From a virus, in the IMG/VR virus record IMGVR_UViG_3300025806_000072, positions 1-38,218 of that record: 38,218 nt of DNA. One strand, 5' to 3'. Below are positions 2,765 to 35,315 of the stretch, piece after piece; within the stretch, counting starts at the first letter, position 1; each line of letters opens with the position of its first letter. The notes below the pieces were generated by a model. It saw only the letters and a list, made by a program, of their open reading frames with translations. It was not told the DNA's origin and did no database searches. A program made the translations under genes and the position numbers.

Positions 2765-5700
2765 TTATATTGGATTAGGATAAGTTGTCCACTGCCTAAC
2801 TGGTTTTGAGTTTGGTCCTGCTGATTCTCCTATCGTCCAACCATCTCCTGTTACATAAAATGCTCCAGACATACTGGTTGGCCACGTTGAATTGTTGAAG
2901 TTTACATAGCTATCAGAAGTCGTAGGAGAACTTCCGTTCCAATAATTACCATTAAGATAAACATTCCTAGGCTTATTGTTGATGTTTCCATCAAAAGCCC
3001 TATTAAGAATTTTTAAATCTTTAACCTTAGTTAAATTTCCAGCCCTAAATATAATGTCTCCAGTTATACCACAATTATTGAAAGATTCGACTCCAACTTG
3101 CTCAACATTAGCTCCGAAAGTCACCTCTTTCATATTTCTTTGATATCTAAAAGCACTTGTACCTATGTTTCTACAGTTCAATTCAGCAGAAGTAATCCAA
3201 CGATATCTGTAGGTGCCGTCATCATTGCTTGCAGTAAAAGCAGATGCCTCTATACTATCTATAGAAGACCCGACGTACAAATCCCCCACTGAAGGGTCTG
3301 CGTTTACTAGGCCCACTCTCCTAAACGCGCTAGTCTCTATTCTTCCTTGTGTGTTTTCTGTGTCGTTGCCTATATATACTCCAGTTATATTAGGACAATT
3401 TCTAAATGAATATTGCCAAATATTTTCTGGGTCTGGTATTTCTATTTTTGTTAAAGAACTGCAGCCCTGGAAAGTATCTGCCCCCTCGCCAACACTTCTC
3501 CCAATAATCTTCACTCCACTTCCAAATGTGACGCCAGTCATGTATCCTTGATTATAAAATGTTTGGAAACCACCAATTTCCCTAGAATTGATTGTGGCGC
3601 TTTTTATGTTATTGAATCTGTCAGCATCTCCACCGTCAGTTATACGAGCGTCAAAAGCCCTATCTCCTATACTATCTATAGAAGAACCTACATAAAGGTC
3701 TATAACGCCAGCAGCTAGGTATTGTGGACCTATTCTTCTAAACGCTCTAGCCTCTATTATTCCTTTTGTGTTTTCTGTGTCGTTACCTATAGATAAATTA
3801 GTTATACCAGCACAATAATTAAAAGCGTAAGGCTTAATATTTTTTGGATCTGGTATGACTACATTAGTTAATGAAGTGCACTCATAAAAAGCGCTTTCGT
3901 CTATTGTTTCACATTTGTCTGTAAGGTTTATGTTGCTTAAATTTCCTTGATACTTAAATGCCTCAACACCAATATATCTTGCACTGCAATTTAGAGTCTC
4001 GATCCATTTATCGCCCACATCTGGATCGTTATCAGCAAAAGATCTAGATCCAACCTGATCGACACTAAAACCTAAATTTACAGTTCCGTTGGTTATTGTT
4101 TTTGAAGTTGAAGAATAAAAAGCTTTTGAATTTATAATCGTTTTTCTACTTGTTGCATTATTTGACCCTATTGTAACTTCCTGTAATTGAGAGCAAGAAC
4201 TAAAAGCTTCACTTCCAATACTAATCAAAGTGCTTGGTAATGAAACAGACTCTAAAAACGAACATTCATAGAATGCTCTATAAGCGATTGTTTCAATACC
4301 TTTTTGACTTACTAAAGATGAAAGTGCGGTCTTGTTAAAAGCAGAATCTCCAATTGATTTTAGTGAACTAGGAACCACTAAAGTGCCGCGTAAATTTGAA
4401 GTTCCATAGTTGGTATGCTTGAATGCCCCATCTCCTATGCTTTGTGTTCTATTTCCAATATACAAGTAATATCCGTCGCCGTTATTTATTTTCCATTCAT
4501 CTATAACATTTCCATCAACACTATCAAGGATCGCAAAATTTTGATCATAATATGTTGTTATGTTTTGATCTTCTGGCCATATTGAAATTAAATTTCCTTG
4601 GTAATAGCCTGGAATAAAACCACCTTTAGCAGTTGTGCTTGCAGTATTATAGCCCGCAATATAATTTTCGGAAACAAACAATAGTCTATCTGACGTTGGC
4701 CCATCGTCTTGAAATCTTAAAGAATTATTATTTCCAATTGCGGTTTCTGGAACGTCTAAATAAGCGTATTGTATTCCGCTGCACTTGTGGAATGCGCTAT
4801 TTCCCACCGACACTATATTGTCTCTTAGTGTTACAGAATCAATACTTGTGCAAGCTTCAAAAGAAAGTGTACCAATAATTTGAACAGAACCCCCAAGTTC
4901 GAGACTTGCAATATTCGGGCATCTTTGAAAACAACTTCCACCAATACTGGTTACCGAATCAGGAATTGACAAATCGTTAGATATTCCAACACAATCTCTG
5001 AAAGCATCATTTCCCAACGATTTTATATTATTTCCTTGAAATTTTAACGAATTAAAACTTGAGCAACCCAAAAAAGCGGAGTTTCCAATGCCAGTTACGT
5101 TGCTTGGTATGTTGATTTCCCCGCCAAGATTTTCGCAAGAAGAAAAAGCACCCTCGCTGACTTTTTTCAGACCCTTGCCTATAGTTAATGTTCCGTCTAA
5201 CCCAATGCAGTCTTCAAATATTCCATTACCAATTCCAGTCACAGAATTTGGAATTACTACACCCCCTTTAATTTGATCACAATTACTAAATGCAAATTGA
5301 CTAATATATTGCAGACCTTCATTGAGGTATAGTTTGTCTATAGATGTGTTTTGAAATGCGTAGTTTCCTATAGTATTTACATTTTCTGGTATATTTACTA
5401 TTCCTTTTAAATATATATTATTTTTAAATGCATCAATACCAATTGCCGACGCTCCAGTTCCTATATCTATATAAACTTCTGGATTACCATTTGCATTAGA
5501 TTCCCCAATGTCATACCATTCATTAGGAACATCAAGAGCTGTTTCATTTAAAATAAAATCATCGCCAGCCCTATAAACCCTACTCTGAGCGGCTCCTCGG
5601 CATATAGATATCCCTTGAAACAATCCATTATTATCAAGTTGGTTTATATAATCATCGTAATCCCTTGCATTAGCATATAAACAGGAGCCACCAACATCGG

Positions 5701-7966
5701 AGCCAGCATTAAGAAAATGATTTGAATCTTTAAATACAGTATAAGGAAAATCTACAAAAACTCTTTTAATGTTTCTCAAATCTCTAAATGCTTCATTATA
5801 AACACCCGTAATGTTATTTTTTAATACTAAATCTCCAGTGAAGCTGCACCCCATAAACGACTTATATTGGATTTCCTCTAAGGTATCTGGTAACACCAAC
5901 TGGCTAGCAAATTTGCAATACTTAAATGATTCCGCCCCTACAATTTCTACATTAGCTCCTATATTTAAATCGCCACTAAAACCGCAATTATAAAATCCAC
6001 GATAAGGAGTCTTTATCAAACTATCGCTTATTGTTAAGCTGCCTTCTAAATTTATGCAATTTGCGAAAGCCTCGTCTTGTAAGTCAGTTAAGCTATTAGG
6101 TAAAACCAAATCTCCATTTAGACCATCGCAATCTTTAAACGCAAAAGATCCTATTGATTCAATAGAGTTAAACTTAACATTGCTTATTTTGTCGTCGTTT
6201 TTGAATGCGCCTGTTGATATTTCTTTTACATCCTTAAAATCAATTTCTCCAGCTAAATCTTCACAAAACTCAAAAGCCCCAACACCAATATACTCTAAAT
6301 TAGCTCCTATGTTTAAAGCGTTAATATTACTACAGTATTGAAATGCATAATCTTGAATTCCAGTTACAGAATCTGGTATGTCTAAATTTTTAAATATCTG
6401 AGAACAACCAGCAAATGAAGACCTGCCTATGTTTTGTAATGATGAGTTTAGAATTAATTTTTCATTGAATTCTTTGCAACCACTAAATGCAGCTTCTCCT
6501 ATTTTAATTAAATTTGGAGGCATATTTAAACCGCCCTTGAATTTATCGCATCCATAAAATGCAAACTCCTCTATATATTCTATACCAGTGCCCAAATAAA
6601 GACTTCCGTTAAACTGGCAATTTTGAAAAGCCCCAGATGGAATTGAATTGCTAATTTTATCTGGGATAACCAAATCTCCCTTAAAACCTACACAATCTTT
6701 AAAGCAATTATCATCCAGGCTAAACTTTTCGTTTGGCAATCTCAATATCCCATTAAAATTTTTACAACCATAAAATGCCTCGCCAGAAATTTGAGTTAAA
6801 CTATCTGGAAGTATAAGATCGCCATCGAGAGTAGTGTTTTTAAATGCTGCATACCCTATACTCTCTAAGCCCTCTTCTATAATTAGGTTGCCATCAAAAC
6901 CAGTGCACCCCTCAAATGCGCTATACCCTATGCTAGATATTGTTGGGCCGCTGCCCGAATCCATGTCTATATATAAATCGCCACCAAGATTCTGGCATCC
7001 ACTAAAAGCGCCAAAACCCACTTTTGTAACATTCTCTCCCAGTTGGATTCCGTAAATATTTGGATCTCCATCATACCATAGGTCAAGAAGCTCAGTAGAA
7101 CTTGTTTGATTATAAACCGCGCCATTCTCATCGAAAACGTAAGTAATATCTCCAGAAAGAGATGTCTCTTCATAAGCGGCGGAATGACCAATATATTTTA
7201 ATGTTATTCTGGTAGATCCATCGGCAGAAACCTGCAAATCTTCGCCAACCAAACTCGCGTTTGGTATATCCACGGACTGTATAAGTGATCCACTTCTACC
7301 GTTAACATTAAGAGATAAGGTCTTGTTTTCTTTTTCCTCTAAAAAACTATAAGCATCTTGCAAGAAAGCGTCATCAACATCAAGTTGAACAGTCGCATTA
7401 TACTCTAGTGGCGGCAATAGCTCAACCTTTACTATATCATCACTACCTATTGTTAGGTAGGCTTTTCTTTCGCACTTTACACCGTAATCAAAACCTACAA
7501 CTCTATTTGTAGTTGAGTTGTCACACGTAATAGAAATAGAACCTTGAGTTGGTATGTCTATAACTGGGTGTGACTGAGGTGCCAGATTGGCGTTTACGCC
7601 GCTCTTCATCTGGCTGGCAATCTGGAAGTTACAACTAACTCTAGGCACCGCTCCTACAGCACAATTAAGAGAGTAATCAACTAAATATCCAGTTTCGAAG
7701 CCATAATAATCATCTTCATAAAAGATACTCCCAGAAATAGGAGCCTCTCCAGTATATGAAAATATAGGATCGTTATATGTCAAAACCCTAGAAACAGAAA
7801 GCGTCTGTTGAATTGGGCCAGAGTGAGTCGTTAAACCATCTCTTGTTCCTAGAGGCTTAATTATGTTCGCGGCATTGTTGTATGAAAAAGTAACATTATC
7901 TACGCCCGATAGTTCATAACCATCGGCAAAAAACCTAGCTTCGTGATTGAATTTGCCCCCAAACAT
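2765..7966 (-). CDS. Giant tail protein: tube-like domain fused to BspA-type LRR array
   Basis: This protein has 1733 residues. Residues about 1-270 form a tube-like domain: YLVDYSLNCAVGAVPRVSCNF (about 94-114) aligns with the tube block FLTDYTLDLSVGSLPTATASF, and SISITCDNSTTNRVVGFD (about 143-160) with its second block. From about residue 273 to the end are LRR_5/BspA repeats (IGxxAFxxCxxLxGxLxIPxSVTx). They fall into three modules, each with an aromatic header and a cap: about 273-790 (cap LYANARDYDDYINQ), about 795-1133 (cap LFVSENYIAGYN), and about 1140-1733 (ends WTTYPNPI). The start ATG overlaps the tape measure stop as TAATG, which suggests coupled translation. There is no signal peptide or membrane segment. 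I infer a tail-tip ring subunit displaying a long LRR arm for host adhesion. The fusion is read directly; the function is inference. Confidence 0.85.
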   Translation of the reverse strand: MFGGKFNHEARFFADGYELSGVDNVTFSYNNAANIIKPLGTRDGLTTHSGPIQQTLSVSRVLTYNDPIFSYTGEAPISGSIFYEDDYYGFETGYLVDYSLNCAVGAVPRVSCNFQIASQMKSGVNANLAPQSHPVIDIPTQGSISITCDNSTTNRVVGFDYGVKCERKAYLTIGSDDIVKVELLPPLEYNATVQLDVDDAFLQDAYSFLEEKENKTLSLNVNGRSGSLIQSVDIPNASLVGEDLQVSADGSTRITLKYIGHSAAYEETSLSGDITYVFDENGAVYNQTSSTELLDLWYDGDPNIYGIQLGENVTKVGFGAFSGCQNLGGDLYIDMDSGSGPTISSIGYSAFEGCTGFDGNLIIEEGLESIGYAAFKNTTLDGDLILPDSLTQISGEAFYGCKNFNGILRLPNEKFSLDDNCFKDCVGFKGDLVIPDKISNSIPSGAFQNCQFNGSLYLGTGIEYIEEFAFYGCDKFKGGLNMPPNLIKIGEAAFSGCKEFNEKLILNSSLQNIGRSSFAGCSQIFKNLDIPDSVTGIQDYAFQYCSNINALNIGANLEYIGVGAFEFCEDLAGEIDFKDVKEISTGAFKNDDKISNVKFNSIESIGSFAFKDCDGLNGDLVLPNSLTDLQDEAFANCINLEGSLTISDSLIKTPYRGFYNCGFSGDLNIGANVEIVGAESFKYCKFASQLVLPDTLEEIQYKSFMGCSFTGDLVLKNNITGVYNEAFRDLRNIKRVFVDFPYTVFKDSNHFLNAGSDVGGSCLYANARDYDDYINQLDNNGLFQGISICRGAAQSRVYRAGDDFILNETALDVPNEWYDIGESNANGNPEVYIDIGTGASAIGIDAFKNNIYLKGIVNIPENVNTIGNYAFQNTSIDKLYLNEGLQYISQFAFSNCDQIKGGVVIPNSVTGIGNGIFEDCIGLDGTLTIGKGLKKVSEGAFSSCENLGGEINIPSNVTGIGNSAFLGCSSFNSLKFQGNNIKSLGNDAFRDCVGISNDLSIPDSVTSIGGSCFQRCPNIASLELGGSVQIIGTLSFEACTSIDSVTLRDNIVSVGNSAFHKCSGIQYAYLDVPETAIGNNNSLRFQDDGPTSDRLLFVSENYIAGYNTASTTAKGGFIPGYYQGNLISIWPEDQNITTYYDQNFAILDSVDGNVIDEWKINNGDGYYLYIGNRTQSIGDGAFKHTNYGTSNLRGTLVVPSSLKSIGDSAFNKTALSSLVSQKGIETIAYRAFYECSFLESVSLPSTLISIGSEAFSSCSQLQEVTIGSNNATSRKTIINSKAFYSSTSKTITNGTVNLGFSVDQVGSRSFADNDPDVGDKWIETLNCSARYIGVEAFKYQGNLSNINLTDKCETIDESAFYECTSLTNVVIPDPKNIKPYAFNYCAGITNLSIGNDTENTKGIIEARAFRRIGPQYLAAGVIDLYVGSSIDSIGDRAFDARITDGGDADRFNNIKSATINSREIGGFQTFYNQGYMTGVTFGSGVKIIGRSVGEGADTFQGCSSLTKIEIPDPENIWQYSFRNCPNITGVYIGNDTENTQGRIETSAFRRVGLVNADPSVGDLYVGSSIDSIEASAFTASNDDGTYRYRWITSAELNCRNIGTSAFRYQRNMKEVTFGANVEQVGVESFNNCGITGDIIFRAGNLTKVKDLKILNRAFDGNINNKPRNVYLNGNYWNGSSPTTSDSYVNFNNSTWPTSMSGAFYVTGDGWTIGESAGPNSKPVRQWTTYPNPI
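3250..4150 (-). repeat. Tandem internal duplication in the LRR gene (period about 411-415 bp)
   Basis: Near-identical stretches recur in the LRR gene. CTATACTATCTATAGAAGA occurs at about 3250 and again at about 3660, and GTGTTTTCTGTGTCGTT occurs at about 3350 and 3765. The encoded units share IGNDTENT(K/Q)G, (E/T)xRAFRR-type segments and DLYVGSSIDSI. A third, more diverged unit (NLGFSVDQVGSRSF...NCSARYIGVEAF) follows at about 3950-4150. The similarity at DNA level points to recent duplication compared with the older single-repeat duplications in the rest of the array. Confidence 0.75.
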
Positions 7967-20228: not shown

Positions 20229-21395
20229 ATGGCAAGAAATAGAGTAATTTATCAATCAGAAGCACTTTTCGTCAGTAAAGAGTATAACTCAACTGGACTC
20301 AGTGATCACACGCAACTTCATCGTGTACAAAGTGCTAATTACGGTTTTACAATCAACCGTCAGGACGTTAACCAGTATGGCAACCTCGCCAGAATTGATT
20401 CTTTGGTGTTGGAACCACCAACGGTCAACTTCGACATTAGTTATTATGTAACTAACGGATACAACGAAAGAGCGTTGGATTTCGCCGTCGAAAACACATT
20501 CAATACAACTAAAGCACAATTTGCATCTGGTCACTTAGGTGCAGGTTCTGGGCAAAACTTCTACATTCTTACTGTAGACGAAGGTAAAGACGCAAACCTC
20601 AATAGGGCAGCTGGTGGTACAACCAACACTGTTATTGGTTTGGGCAATTCATTCCTTACGGATTACACCCTTGACCTTTCTGTTGGATCTCTCCCAACTG
20701 CTACAGCGTCCTTCGAAGCTTCAAACATTCTTTCTGACGCCACTGTATCTGGAAACCTTGGACTTAAGGCCTTTACTGGTATTAAAAGTCCAGGAGTAGA
20801 CCCAGTTAATGGAGATTCTATACCATTCGAAGTGCAAATTCCTTATGCATCAGGAAACTCACACACTGGAGATTATGTTGCAGACGCCGAAGACCAACTT
20901 TCAGCTCTTAGACCTGGAGACATCACACTTGATCTTTCTAGCTTCGATGGGGAGGTTCTCACAAAGTTAGACGGAACATCAGGCATTCACATTCAGAGCG
21001 CTTCTCTCTCTCTTCCTCTTTCAAGAACGCCAATCGAAAGACTTGGATCTAAGTTCCCATTTGCCCGAGTCGTCGACTTCCCAGTTAACGCTACTCTCAC
21101 AGTAAACGCTATTGTTAACACAATGGAGGCTCAAAACCTAGCAAGCATGATCAGTGGTTGCGGACAAGGTAACCTTAGAGATGTTACCATCACCATGAAA
21201 GAGTGTGGAGGAACCACCAATGGAATGATCTTCGGATTGTCTGGATGCACAATCGACTCAGAGAGCTTCTCTTCCAGCATTGGCTCAAACAAGAGTGTTG
21301 ACCTTACATTCTCCACTCAAATTGGCGGAACAAAGGATGTATCAAAAGGAATTTTCGTAAGCGGAAACAACGACACCAAGCTTCCTTGGGAATAA
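20229..21395 (+). CDS. Major tail tube protein, copy 1
   Basis: This 388-residue protein is paralogous to the next gene. Shared blocks are TINRQDVNQYGNLARIDS (residues about 41-58), FLTDYTLDLSVGSLPTA (about 142-158), RPGDITLDL, and SLPLSRTPIERLGSKFPFAR (about 258-278). Codons are more biased toward C-ending forms (AAC, TTC, CTC) than in the tail-tip genes, as expected for an abundant virion protein. Position after the neck genes fits the tail tube. The leader is AT-rich without a Shine-Dalgarno. Together with copy 2 it could form a mixed or alternating tube, or one copy may be an alternative form. The tube role is inferred from paralogy, abundance-type codon use and gene order. Confidence 0.8.
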   Translation: MARNRVIYQSEALFVSKEYNSTGLSDHTQLHRVQSANYGFTINRQDVNQYGNLARIDSLVLEPPTVNFDISYYVTNGYNERALDFAVENTFNTTKAQFASGHLGAGSGQNFYILTVDEGKDANLNRAAGGTTNTVIGLGNSFLTDYTLDLSVGSLPTATASFEASNILSDATVSGNLGLKAFTGIKSPGVDPVNGDSIPFEVQIPYASGNSHTGDYVADAEDQLSALRPGDITLDLSSFDGEVLTKLDGTSGIHIQSASLSLPLSRTPIERLGSKFPFARVVDFPVNATLTVNAIVNTMEAQNLASMISGCGQGNLRDVTITMKECGGTTNGMIFGLSGCTIDSESFSSSIGSNKSVDLTFSTQIGGTKDVSKGIFVSGNNDTKLPWE

Positions 21396-21428
21396 TATCA
21401 AAAAGTAAACAATAAACATTTTTAAAAC

Positions 21429-22565
21429 ATGTCAAGAAATAGAGTAATTTACCAATCAGAGTCTCTTTATACAAGTAAAGAGGTAAACTCCACTGCCACT
21501 GGAGATCACCATGAGCTAATCAGGGTTCAAAGCGCAAACTATGGATTCACCATTAATAGACAGGACGTTAACCAATACGGCAACCTTGCTCGTATTGATT
21601 CGCTTGTTCTAGAACCACCAACTGTAAACTTCGACTTTTCATACTATCTTACAGATGGACTCAATGAAAAAGCCTTAGGTTTTGATATATCCAACACCTC
21701 TCAGTTCGTTAGCGGGTTTTTGGAAACCTCTAGCGGCAAGAACTTCTACATAGTAACTTCAGATGAGGGCCAAGACTCTACAACGTTTGTGGAAAACGAA
21801 GAATACAGCCTTATTGGAATTGGTAATGCATTCCTTAGTGATTATACTGTGGATCTTTCTGTAGGCTCACTTCCTACGGCAACAGTATCCTTTGAAGGTT
21901 CAAACATCAACTCTCAAAACGGTTCCGTAACAGGAACAGTTCCTTCAGCTTTTGCTCTTACTGGAGCTCTTCCTTCTGTCGACCCAGAAGACGGAACCAT
22001 TATCGCTGGATCAACTAGTATCCAAGTGCCTCAAAACACTGGCCAAGACGGACCTACAGCATTAAGACCTGGAGATATTGTTCTCGGTTTTGACGGTTTT
22101 GACGGAGGCGCTGCAGAATCTGGAACGCTAACATCTCTTGTTGGTGCTGGAGGATTCCACGTTCAGAGTGCATCTATTTCAGTACCTCTCTCAAGAACAC
22201 CTATTGAGCGTGTAGGATCAAAATTCCCATTCGCGCGTGTTGTTGACTTCCCAGTTAACGCCACAATGACTGTAAACGCTGTTCTTAATGAAATCGAAGC
22301 TGGAAACCTTGCAGATCTTATCGCTGGTTGTGCTAGCTCAGAGGGCAAAGAAGTTTCTATCCTACTTAATCAATGTGAAGGCGACAACGCAATCAAATGG
22401 ACGCTCAAAGGAGCTACCCTTGATTCCGAGAGTTGGTCTTCTAGTGTTGGTTCTAACAAAACAGTTGACATCACCTTTGGTGTCCAACTTGGAGGAATCG
22501 AAGATATCGAAAGAGGTATCATTTGCAGCGGCGCTGGCAATACAAGGCCAGTATTCGGTGTATAA
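21429..22565 (+). CDS. Major tail tube protein, copy 2
   Basis: This 378-residue protein is a close paralogue of the preceding gene, with almost identical N-terminus (RNRVIYQSE), TINRQDVNQYGNLARIDSLV and PLSRTPIERVGSKFPFARVV blocks. The segments between the blocks (for example residues about 75-120 and 165-215) differ strongly, suggesting surface loops that diverge while the tube core is kept. It is the last gene of the rightward block and is followed by a strong bidirectional terminator. A third close copy is on the minus strand at the left window edge. Confidence 0.8.
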   Translation: MSRNRVIYQSESLYTSKEVNSTATGDHHELIRVQSANYGFTINRQDVNQYGNLARIDSLVLEPPTVNFDFSYYLTDGLNEKALGFDISNTSQFVSGFLETSSGKNFYIVTSDEGQDSTTFVENEEYSLIGIGNAFLSDYTVDLSVGSLPTATVSFEGSNINSQNGSVTGTVPSAFALTGALPSVDPEDGTIIAGSTSIQVPQNTGQDGPTALRPGDIVLGFDGFDGGAAESGTLTSLVGAGGFHVQSASISVPLSRTPIERVGSKFPFARVVDFPVNATMTVNAVLNEIEAGNLADLIAGCASSEGKEVSILLNQCEGDNAIKWTLKGATLDSESWSSSVGSNKTVDITFGVQLGGIEDIERGIICSGAGNTRPVFGV

Positions 22566-34394: not shown

Positions 34395-35315
34395 CTACAA
34401 AAGTACTTCGCTTATGGCGGCTTGGGTCTTGATTACATCACCGCCCTGAATACCATAACTATAAGTATTGACTTTCGCACCACTATTGGCCGCGAATTCA
34501 AAACCGTCATTATATTCTGGCAGTATCTTGTTGCCATCTATGTCTTTAACAATTAAAGCAACGGGCTCTTGTAATTTTATACCATCATAATCGGCGAAGT
34601 TACTTATCCCAGTTGATTCTAGCTGTATTTGAGATTCTACAGCGTCAATCAGAAAATTTGTAGGCTTAGTACTTCCTAATGTATAAACTGGTGTTCTAGC
34701 ATACCTCTTAGAAAAAGACATACTAGGAATAACGTCCCCATAAACAACATCATCATACACTCCGCTTAACTCACAGGTGTTGGCGGTTATTATTGAGCGT
34801 CCACTCATATAATCATTGTAAGAATTAAAATTAACATCCGCCTCTTGTTTTGTTTCTCCCTCGGTAGGTGGATCGAAACACTTAAAGTTAGCGTTCACCT
34901 TTAAGGGGGCAAAAGCAGAAACTTGCACAGTATAATCCTGAATATAACACCTGTTGTAAATATTTGCGCCAATTCTGATCGGAAAATAATTAGCTCCCGT
35001 TCCATTACCCAAAATGTTGCCTTTATAATTAGCACCGTCCATTAAAAACCCGTAAACATTCTGACCATCTACTCCTTTTTTAGGATAAGAGTAAAAATTA
35101 AATGCTAAACTAATACTACATGAAGAATCAGATGTATAAACATATTGATTGTCTTTATCAATACTAGATCCCAACCTCCTGTTCGGGATAGACGCAGATG
35201 AATAACTCACAGAGACGCCGTCAGCATAAAGCATGAAGTCTTTATGAAAACCCCAATCACTAACAAAATCTCTATTCCCGTACCCAATATATACTGGAAA
35301 ATTCTTATACGTCAT
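34395..35315 (-). CDS. Outlying tail-tube-fold protein
   Basis: This 306-residue protein belongs to the same paralogue family as the tube proteins. CYIQDYTVQVSAFAPLKVNA (residues about 123-142) aligns with the FLTDYTLDLSVGSLPTAT block, and SMSFSKRYARTPVYTLGSTK (about 198-217) with SLPLSRTPIERLGSKF. Its N-terminus (FMLYADGVSVSYSSASI) is closer to the tube-like domain of the 1733-residue LRR fusion. It sits far from the tail cluster, between a small basic protein and the transcription genes, which is unusual. Probable role: a specialised ring such as a tail tip or neck ring. A GTGTATAAA element lies 8 nt before its ATG. Confidence 0.75.
   Translation of the reverse strand: MTYKNFPVYIGYGNRDFVSDWGFHKDFMLYADGVSVSYSSASIPNRRLGSSIDKDNQYVYTSDSSCSISLAFNFYSYPKKGVDGQNVYGFLMDGANYKGNILGNGTGANYFPIRIGANIYNRCYIQDYTVQVSAFAPLKVNANFKCFDPPTEGETKQEADVNFNSYNDYMSGRSIITANTCELSGVYDDVVYGDVIPSMSFSKRYARTPVYTLGSTKPTNFLIDAVESQIQLESTGISNFADYDGIKLQEPVALIVKDIDGNKILPEYNDGFEFAANSGAKVNTYSYGIQGGDVIKTQAAISEVLL

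Follow-up and report, generated by a model that had tools for sequence, protein, structure and literature searches.

A probable tail-tip tube subunit with giant BspA-type leucine-rich repeat arms encoded by a metagenomic phage

What is a protein for that continues from a tail-tube-like domain into almost 1500 residues of leucine-rich repeats (LRRs)? Such a protein is encoded in the IMG/VR virus record IMGVR_UViG_3300025806_000072, which was analysed over its full 38,218 nucleotides (the window). Known phage adhesion devices are trimeric fibres, tailspikes, Ig-like domains and carbohydrate-binding modules, and searches of the open-access PMC literature found no paper that describes LRR arms on the tail-tube proteins of phages. 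We propose, with a probability of roughly 0.7, that the protein is a subunit of a tube ring at the tail tip, probably trimeric like that of T5 p140, which carries C-terminal LRR adhesin arms.

The gene (X-LRR, 1733 residues) lies on the minus strand, with its ATG at 7966 and its stop at 2765; the first-pass annotation gave the coordinates 2765-7966 correctly and left the strand unstated. Its ATG shares one base with the tape measure gene, the final base of that gene's stop codon, and it directly follows the tape measure (Table 1). By the usual length rule, a tape measure of 2713 residues would correspond to a tail of ~400 nm or more, and in one relative the open frame reaches 3361 residues. 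Several tail-tube-like paralogues are present in the window (20229-22565, 694-1800, 7181-7966, 34395-35315 and 2-193). The adjacent pair at 20229-22565 is probably the main tail tube, and the 306-residue protein at 34395-35315, near the terminase, is tied to the tube family by one weak alignment. We refer to the N-terminal domain and its stand-alone counterparts as X, and to the other tail-tip genes as Y, Z and W.

Table 1. Tail-region features of the window and the evidence used to name them.
Feature	Position	Strand	Basis and remarks
W, start of a tube-family gene, first 64 residues	2-193	minus	Cut by the window end; named from likeness to 20229-22565
Separate LRR protein, 147 aa	239-682	minus	LRR_5, E 1.8e-9; module header (itself a seed of the header model) and cap-like end
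Z, tube-family paralogue	694-1800	minus	Profile similarity; plain in the window
Y, Phage_min_tail	1824-2753	minus	PF05939 minor tail protein, E 1.2e-11; plain in the window
LRR module 3, residues 1138-1733 and stop	2765-4555	minus	Header; distal end, ~950 aa longer in the orthologue G014
LRR module 2, residues 797-1137	4556-5578	minus	Header; 4fd0 alignment
LRR module 1, residues 275-796	5579-7144	minus	Header 275-327, repeats, cap; LRR_5, header model, 4fs7 alignment
Linker, residues 263-274	7145-7180	minus	pLDDT <50 at 263-270; end of stand-alone X
X domain, residues 1-262	7181-7966	minus	Two-domain tail-tube subunit, T5 p140/pb6-like predicted fold
Tape measure protein, 2713 aa	7966-16107	minus	Named from size, position and sequence character; no family match
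Adjacent pair of tube-family paralogues, 388 and 378 aa	20229-22565	plus	~60% identical to each other

Residues 1-262 were aligned with the matching gene of ten relatives (alignment A1, used for folding and profile searches), and the resulting AF2 model has a pLDDT of 79.8 and a pTM of 0.79. Its best PDB match by Foldseek is chain G of the T5 tail tip structure 7qg9 (E 7e-10); next come chains from the tubes and tail tips of further siphophages, with T5 and DT57C chains among the matches. VIA-align superposes residues 6-262 onto chain A of 9ioz, also of the T5 tail tip, with a Z score of 17.5 and an rmsd of 3.5 for 228 residues, and residues 5-262 onto 7qg9_G with a Z score of 16.9. The T5 chain of 293-298 residues in these two entries is presumably p140, judging from its length and the entry titles. 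The T5 tube (Z 17.1) and the major tail protein of SH-Ab15497 (Z 17.0) also align from residue 5 or 6 to residue 262, compared to Z scores of only ~9 to 10 for single-domain tube proteins. The structural comparison thus places two tandem tail-tube domains across the whole of the predicted X model. The first-pass annotation had regarded the first 270 residues as a tube part and had named structure prediction as the test of that idea; a predicted tube fold is found there, with a real extent of ~262 residues, where the arm-less relatives end. The two sequence blocks that it saw as shared with the tube family hold as homology, since profile-profile comparison gives E values of 1.3e-10 for X with Z, 2.1e-6 for X with the pair at 20229-22565, and 2.8e-32 for Z with this pair. 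Both the fusion of X to the LRR array and the predicted tube fold are well supported.

A search of the PDB with the A1 profile returned chance matches only (cytochrome P450, E 0.5) and none to T5 p140. The assignment to p140 therefore draws on the predicted fold and the approximate gene position, as the two proteins have no detectable sequence similarity. According to the available sections of PMC10038345, p140 sits between the tube and the distal tail hexamer as a trimeric ring of pseudo-hexameric form, is built of tube domains like those of pb6 without the Ig domain of pb6, and touches with its C-terminus the p132 collar, onto which the side fibres are grafted. X resembles p140 in consisting, from end to end, of two tandem tube domains and in its tail-tip context; the C-terminus of p140 is at the outer side, where the side fibres are held, and it is at the C-terminus of X that the arm starts. 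The two differ in that p140 has no C-terminal extension or decoration, and in that the gene of X follows the tape measure. The succession of genes, with X between the tape measure and the PF05939 protein, agrees only loosely with the position of the p140 ring, and X could sit elsewhere in the tail tip.

The arm (residues 275-1733) consists of three header-repeat-cap modules of BspA-type LRRs (PF13306), with headers at residues 275, 797 and 1138. It matches Pfam LRR_5 in 10 stretches with an E value of 3.2e-160 and a score of 525 bits, where the cut-off is 27.7, and the BspA-type repeat LxxLxLxxxLxxIgxxAFxx(C/N)xx is found above the curated cut-off, in the form in which the TpLRR consensus is printed in the accessible part of PMC2946307. 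Both the BspA-type character of this array of ~1460 residues and its division into three modules, as originally proposed, are confirmed. Most of the headers found by the header model had also served as its seeds; among the matches listed, those to Y of G012 (E 1.9e-12) and Y of G014 (E 6.7e-8) are strong and independent. A separate structure model, of residues 1-1137, has the tube domain joined in a single chain to two solenoids of the BspA type. Its confidence drops below 50 at residues 263-270, in several stretches of 778-828, and at 1090-1092 and 1110-1121, and these drops mark the linker and two inter-module junctions; the overall pTM is only 0.48, as expected of jointed domains.

Residues 317-717 align with 4fs7 (Z 22.9) and residues 792-1130 with 4fd0 (Z 24.0), both bacterial LRR proteins, the latter alignment covering a whole header-repeat-cap module. 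By sequence, module 1 matches 4fs7 (E 9e-32) and the TpLRR protein 6mlx (E 4e-13). The arm thus shares its repeat consensus and solenoid fold with BspA/TpLRR proteins, but the structures 4fs7, 4fd0 and 6mlx are of bacterial proteins, whereas here the array is borne by a phage tail subunit. The Trichomonas BspA-like proteins are described as potential extracellular proteins with lengths of 58 to 1865 residues (PMC2843621, in the portion available), a maximum exceeded by five of the phage fusion proteins (1944 to 4393 residues). A BspA-type LRR gene is also known, as an annotation, from the jumbo phage vB_VhaM_pir03 (ORF 287), for which the available text of PMC7765460 mentions no tail-tube domain.

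Comparisons with related records allowed us to follow where such modules occur. A terminase search of IMG/VR gave 312 related stretches, 80 of which were retained; among 39 records picked from 97 loci, the tape measure was matched in 22 and LRR_5 in 7. The region after the tape measure was inspected in 12 records. Ten of them have X, Y and Z in recognisable succession after the tape measure, and other genes follow it in the distant L171 and L172 (the X profile was not applied to these two). The arm is on X in the window and in G014 (2671 residues). LRRs are on Y in G014, G035, G009 and G012, and on W in G035, G012 and G009, and G012 has a separate LRR protein of 964 residues. Z carries an arm in G035 (4393 residues), G009 (3918), G012 (3172), G004 (1944) and G007 (cut by the contig end). 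For W of G009 and for Z of G009, G004 and G007, the basis is the genome search together with motif counts. The same search found no LRR_5 match within the records of G024, G030 and G027. Four different tail-tip proteins (X, Y, Z and W) thus carry the same kind of LRR module across the relatives, linked by a common header. The Z gene of G035 (L160 2991-16172) is a single phage open reading frame of 4393 residues with 35 LRR_5 stretches.

The modules appear to have been added at the native C-terminus each time, since their headers begin about where the plain proteins end. Plain X, when aligned with the fused form, stops at the very residue beyond which the latter continues. Plain Z is mostly 361 to 368 residues long and the headers on Z begin at ~370-377; plain Y is mostly 309 to 343 residues long and the headers on Y begin at 338-344. 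Z of G014 (L164 11157-14165, cut by the contig end) has a short, sub-threshold LRR_5 stretch followed by weak Ig-like and AGS_C matches, suggesting that this point may also receive domains of other kinds.

Searches of viral contigs with a single sequence, either the whole protein or residues 1-270, gave no close relatives, and an alignment was needed. A scan with the X alignment found 197 relatives, and X is a complete stand-alone frame of 260-273 residues in all of the best 80; many LRR motifs occur on Z in 3 of the 66 loci with a recognisable downstream Z, two of the three being G004 and G007. The scan is not exhaustive and gives no frequency of X-arms, because the G014 record, which holds X, is not among its matches. 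A scan with the arm itself returned the G014 record as its sole X-arm. Most relatives are without an X-arm, which is therefore not essential to the tail. No deposited phage has an X domain at E values up to 0.1, and the matches of deposited phages to the whole protein reflect LRR similarity, at <35% identity; the gene contexts of four such matches were inspected, the last of which carries no annotation. The X profile also matched three contigs of metagenome bins, assigned to Lokiarchaeota, Verrucomicrobiales and Alphaproteobacteria; we rejected a host assignment on this basis, since the three bins disagree.

Within the family the arms both grow and diverge. The X proteins of the window and G014 are collinear over ~1650 residues, with headers and core kept, and G014 has ~950 extra residues at the far end. 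The X domains of the two are ~60% identical (56 to 68% per 50-residue block), compared to ~42% for the arms (mostly 25 to 54% per block). The Z proteins of G035 and G009 are 78% identical, with two additional blocks in G035, of 231 (182 + 49) and 246 residues. In a masked self-search these blocks are 75% or 70% identical to the adjoining block, and they represent tandem block gains. Identity falls towards the distal end between G035 and G012, and between G004 and L187. The expectation that the arrays gain or lose repeats between relatives is borne out by the G035 blocks and the longer end of G014. The arms change faster than the tail core and in a modular manner, which is the pattern of receptor-binding-type evolution.

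Substitution within the repeats of the X-arm is uneven. With the AF motif as register, we distinguished a variable segment (xxIgxxAFxx(C/N)x) from the other exposed sites, nearly all of which lie in a highly conserved segment; exposure was assigned by repeat register, not by side-chain coordinates. Over 40 repeats of the window/G014 pair, exposed positions of the variable segment are 15.7% identical (shuffle mean 11.5%), compared to 41.0% for the other exposed positions (shuffle 12.9%) and 61.5% for the core (shuffle 32.0%). Because the positions had been picked from this same pair, the test was repeated with positions chosen from one half and tested on the other, which gave 15.1 versus 35.6% (p 1e-5) and 20.6 versus 43.8% (p 1.5e-4). 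Z-arm pairs of similar core identity have no such contrast (46.9 versus 49.4% and 49.5 versus 52.8%), and it is absent in all four Z-arm pairs compared; two Y-arm pairs have a weaker one (36 versus 50% and 30 versus 49%, over 8 and 10 repeats). Approximate pN and pS are 0.59 and 0.65 for the variable segment of the X pair and 0.27 and 0.71 for the tube domain, rough rates, since synonymous sites approach saturation and just one pair of X-arms is known. With pN so near pS under these conditions we do not claim positive selection, and the pattern fits either selection for change or a loss of constraint confined to the variable segment. The fastest-changing positions are those of this segment, probably on the convex or lateral face. 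Many LRR receptors bind through their concave face instead, and this point speaks against an adhesin role.

LRR genes are also found outside the tail-tip cluster. G020 and G004 encode short LRR_5 proteins elsewhere in the genome (L173, L175), and an 882-residue protein of G020 (L174 295-2943), away from the tail tip, has eight stretches of DUF285, a family listed for a phage BspA-like protein in the available part of PMC7765460. The contig L261, apparently of an unrelated phage, encodes two LRR proteins in which both the header and the W-x-x-Y-P-N end are similar; it carries a portal-like and a capsid-like frame (read from the frames, not from database matches), and a profile scan found no match to X, Z or the tube in it. 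A sulfotransferase-like frame and a small frame with a YAI-GPQG-type start, both named by reading, adjoin the LRR genes in L261 (5149-9442), L173 (1386-5917) and L175 (1382-6494). The three kinds of gene may form a cassette shared between phage groups.

Could X-LRR be something other than an adhesin ring of the p140 type? The gene directly after the tape measure of a siphophage is often the distal tail protein Dit, and X can also be aligned with single tube domains from tail proteins of lambda and phage 80alpha (Z ~9), so that X might form a Dit-type hexameric ring, an evolved Dit with a binding domain, and not a trimeric one. Evolved Dit and baseplate adhesion devices do add binding domains to a tail-tip ring protein, as X-LRR would, but they combine carbohydrate-binding modules with the Dit fold, and X-LRR has LRR solenoids. 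This reading is quite unlikely, as the best matches span both domains of X (Z 15 to 17.5), with two-domain tube and tail-tip chains far above single-domain tail proteins, and the next gene, Y, encodes a PF05939 protein; in T5, moreover, subunits with two domains assemble into a trimer instead of a hexamer (PMC10038345, available sections). A misassembly that joined a tail gene to an unrelated LRR gene is extremely improbable. The window is a single metagenomic record containing repeats, but the collinear orthologue G014 comes from a different IMG/VR record and its fusion has its own longer end, and the frame of X-LRR is open across 5.2 kb; on the strength of this orthologue we rejected a chimeric contig.

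The role of the arms themselves can also be read differently. They could be tail decorations that stick weakly to glycans, mucus, particles and many kinds of cells, the receptor being bound by a protein encoded outside the window, which stops before all tip genes appear. Tube proteins often bear C-terminal Ig-like decorations, T5 pb6 among them (PMC10038345, in the sections available); like the arm of X-LRR, the decoration of pb6 is a C-terminal add-on to a two-domain tube subunit, and it is exposed to the outside, as the arm would be, but it is an Ig domain compared to ~1460 LRR residues and sits at a different ring position. The absence of the arm from most relatives also agrees with a decoration. 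We nevertheless consider a mere decoration unlikely, since arms that measure ~1500 to 4000 residues, duplicate blocks and diverge distally resemble selected binding surfaces, and the variable segment of the X pair has turned over to near chance level while the core was kept. Alternatively, the modules could be mobile cargo that is placed after any outward-facing C-terminus and has no settled function, the uneven substitution being relaxed constraint. Their presence on at least four different genes and as stand-alone frames fits this, and the near-chance identity of the variable segment could reflect no constraint at all. Yet the X-arms of the window and G014 remain collinear with headers and core conserved, reading frames stay open up to 4393 residues, and the Z-arms conserve both exposed classes equally, indicating that an LRR arm does not in itself leave such positions unconstrained; cargo is thus a very unlikely explanation.

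For the adhesin ring, we propose the following arrangement by analogy with T5. Three X subunits, with two tube domains each, would assemble into a pseudo-hexameric ring where the tube ends distally, close to the tape measure. The T5 ring touches the fibre-holding collar with its C-terminus, which therefore faces outward; each X chain would continue past a short linker as a series of three jointed LRR solenoids, and a virion with such a ring would show three long curved arms round the tail tip. Most likely, these arms would make the first contact with the host surface. Specificity could then shift through replacement of exposed residues in the variable segment of the repeat, through gain or loss of repeat blocks, or through movement of a module between tail-tip genes. 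We infer the stoichiometry of the ring, its presence in the virion, the outward orientation and host binding from fold, gene position and evolution. More tentatively, the family may practise a repeat-based form of variable recognition, in which modules with a common header migrate among at least four ring or tip subunits and grow by tandem duplication of blocks of ~10 repeats, and the X-arm exchanges the residues of one repeat segment almost completely on a kept scaffold; this wider proposal is possible, if doubtful on present evidence.

If the proposal of an adhesin ring is true, a tube ring with LRR arms of ~1500 residues or more would be a new recognition scaffold, the specificity of which could be adjusted repeat by repeat. 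Repeat-based recognition, if real, would follow a logic like that of immune-system LRR receptors, employed here by a virus for host recognition. The family also offers a natural experiment, as the same tail core occurs without any arm, with the arm placed on one subunit or another, and with shorter or longer arms, and this variety allows tests of how phages invent and relocate their receptor-binding parts.
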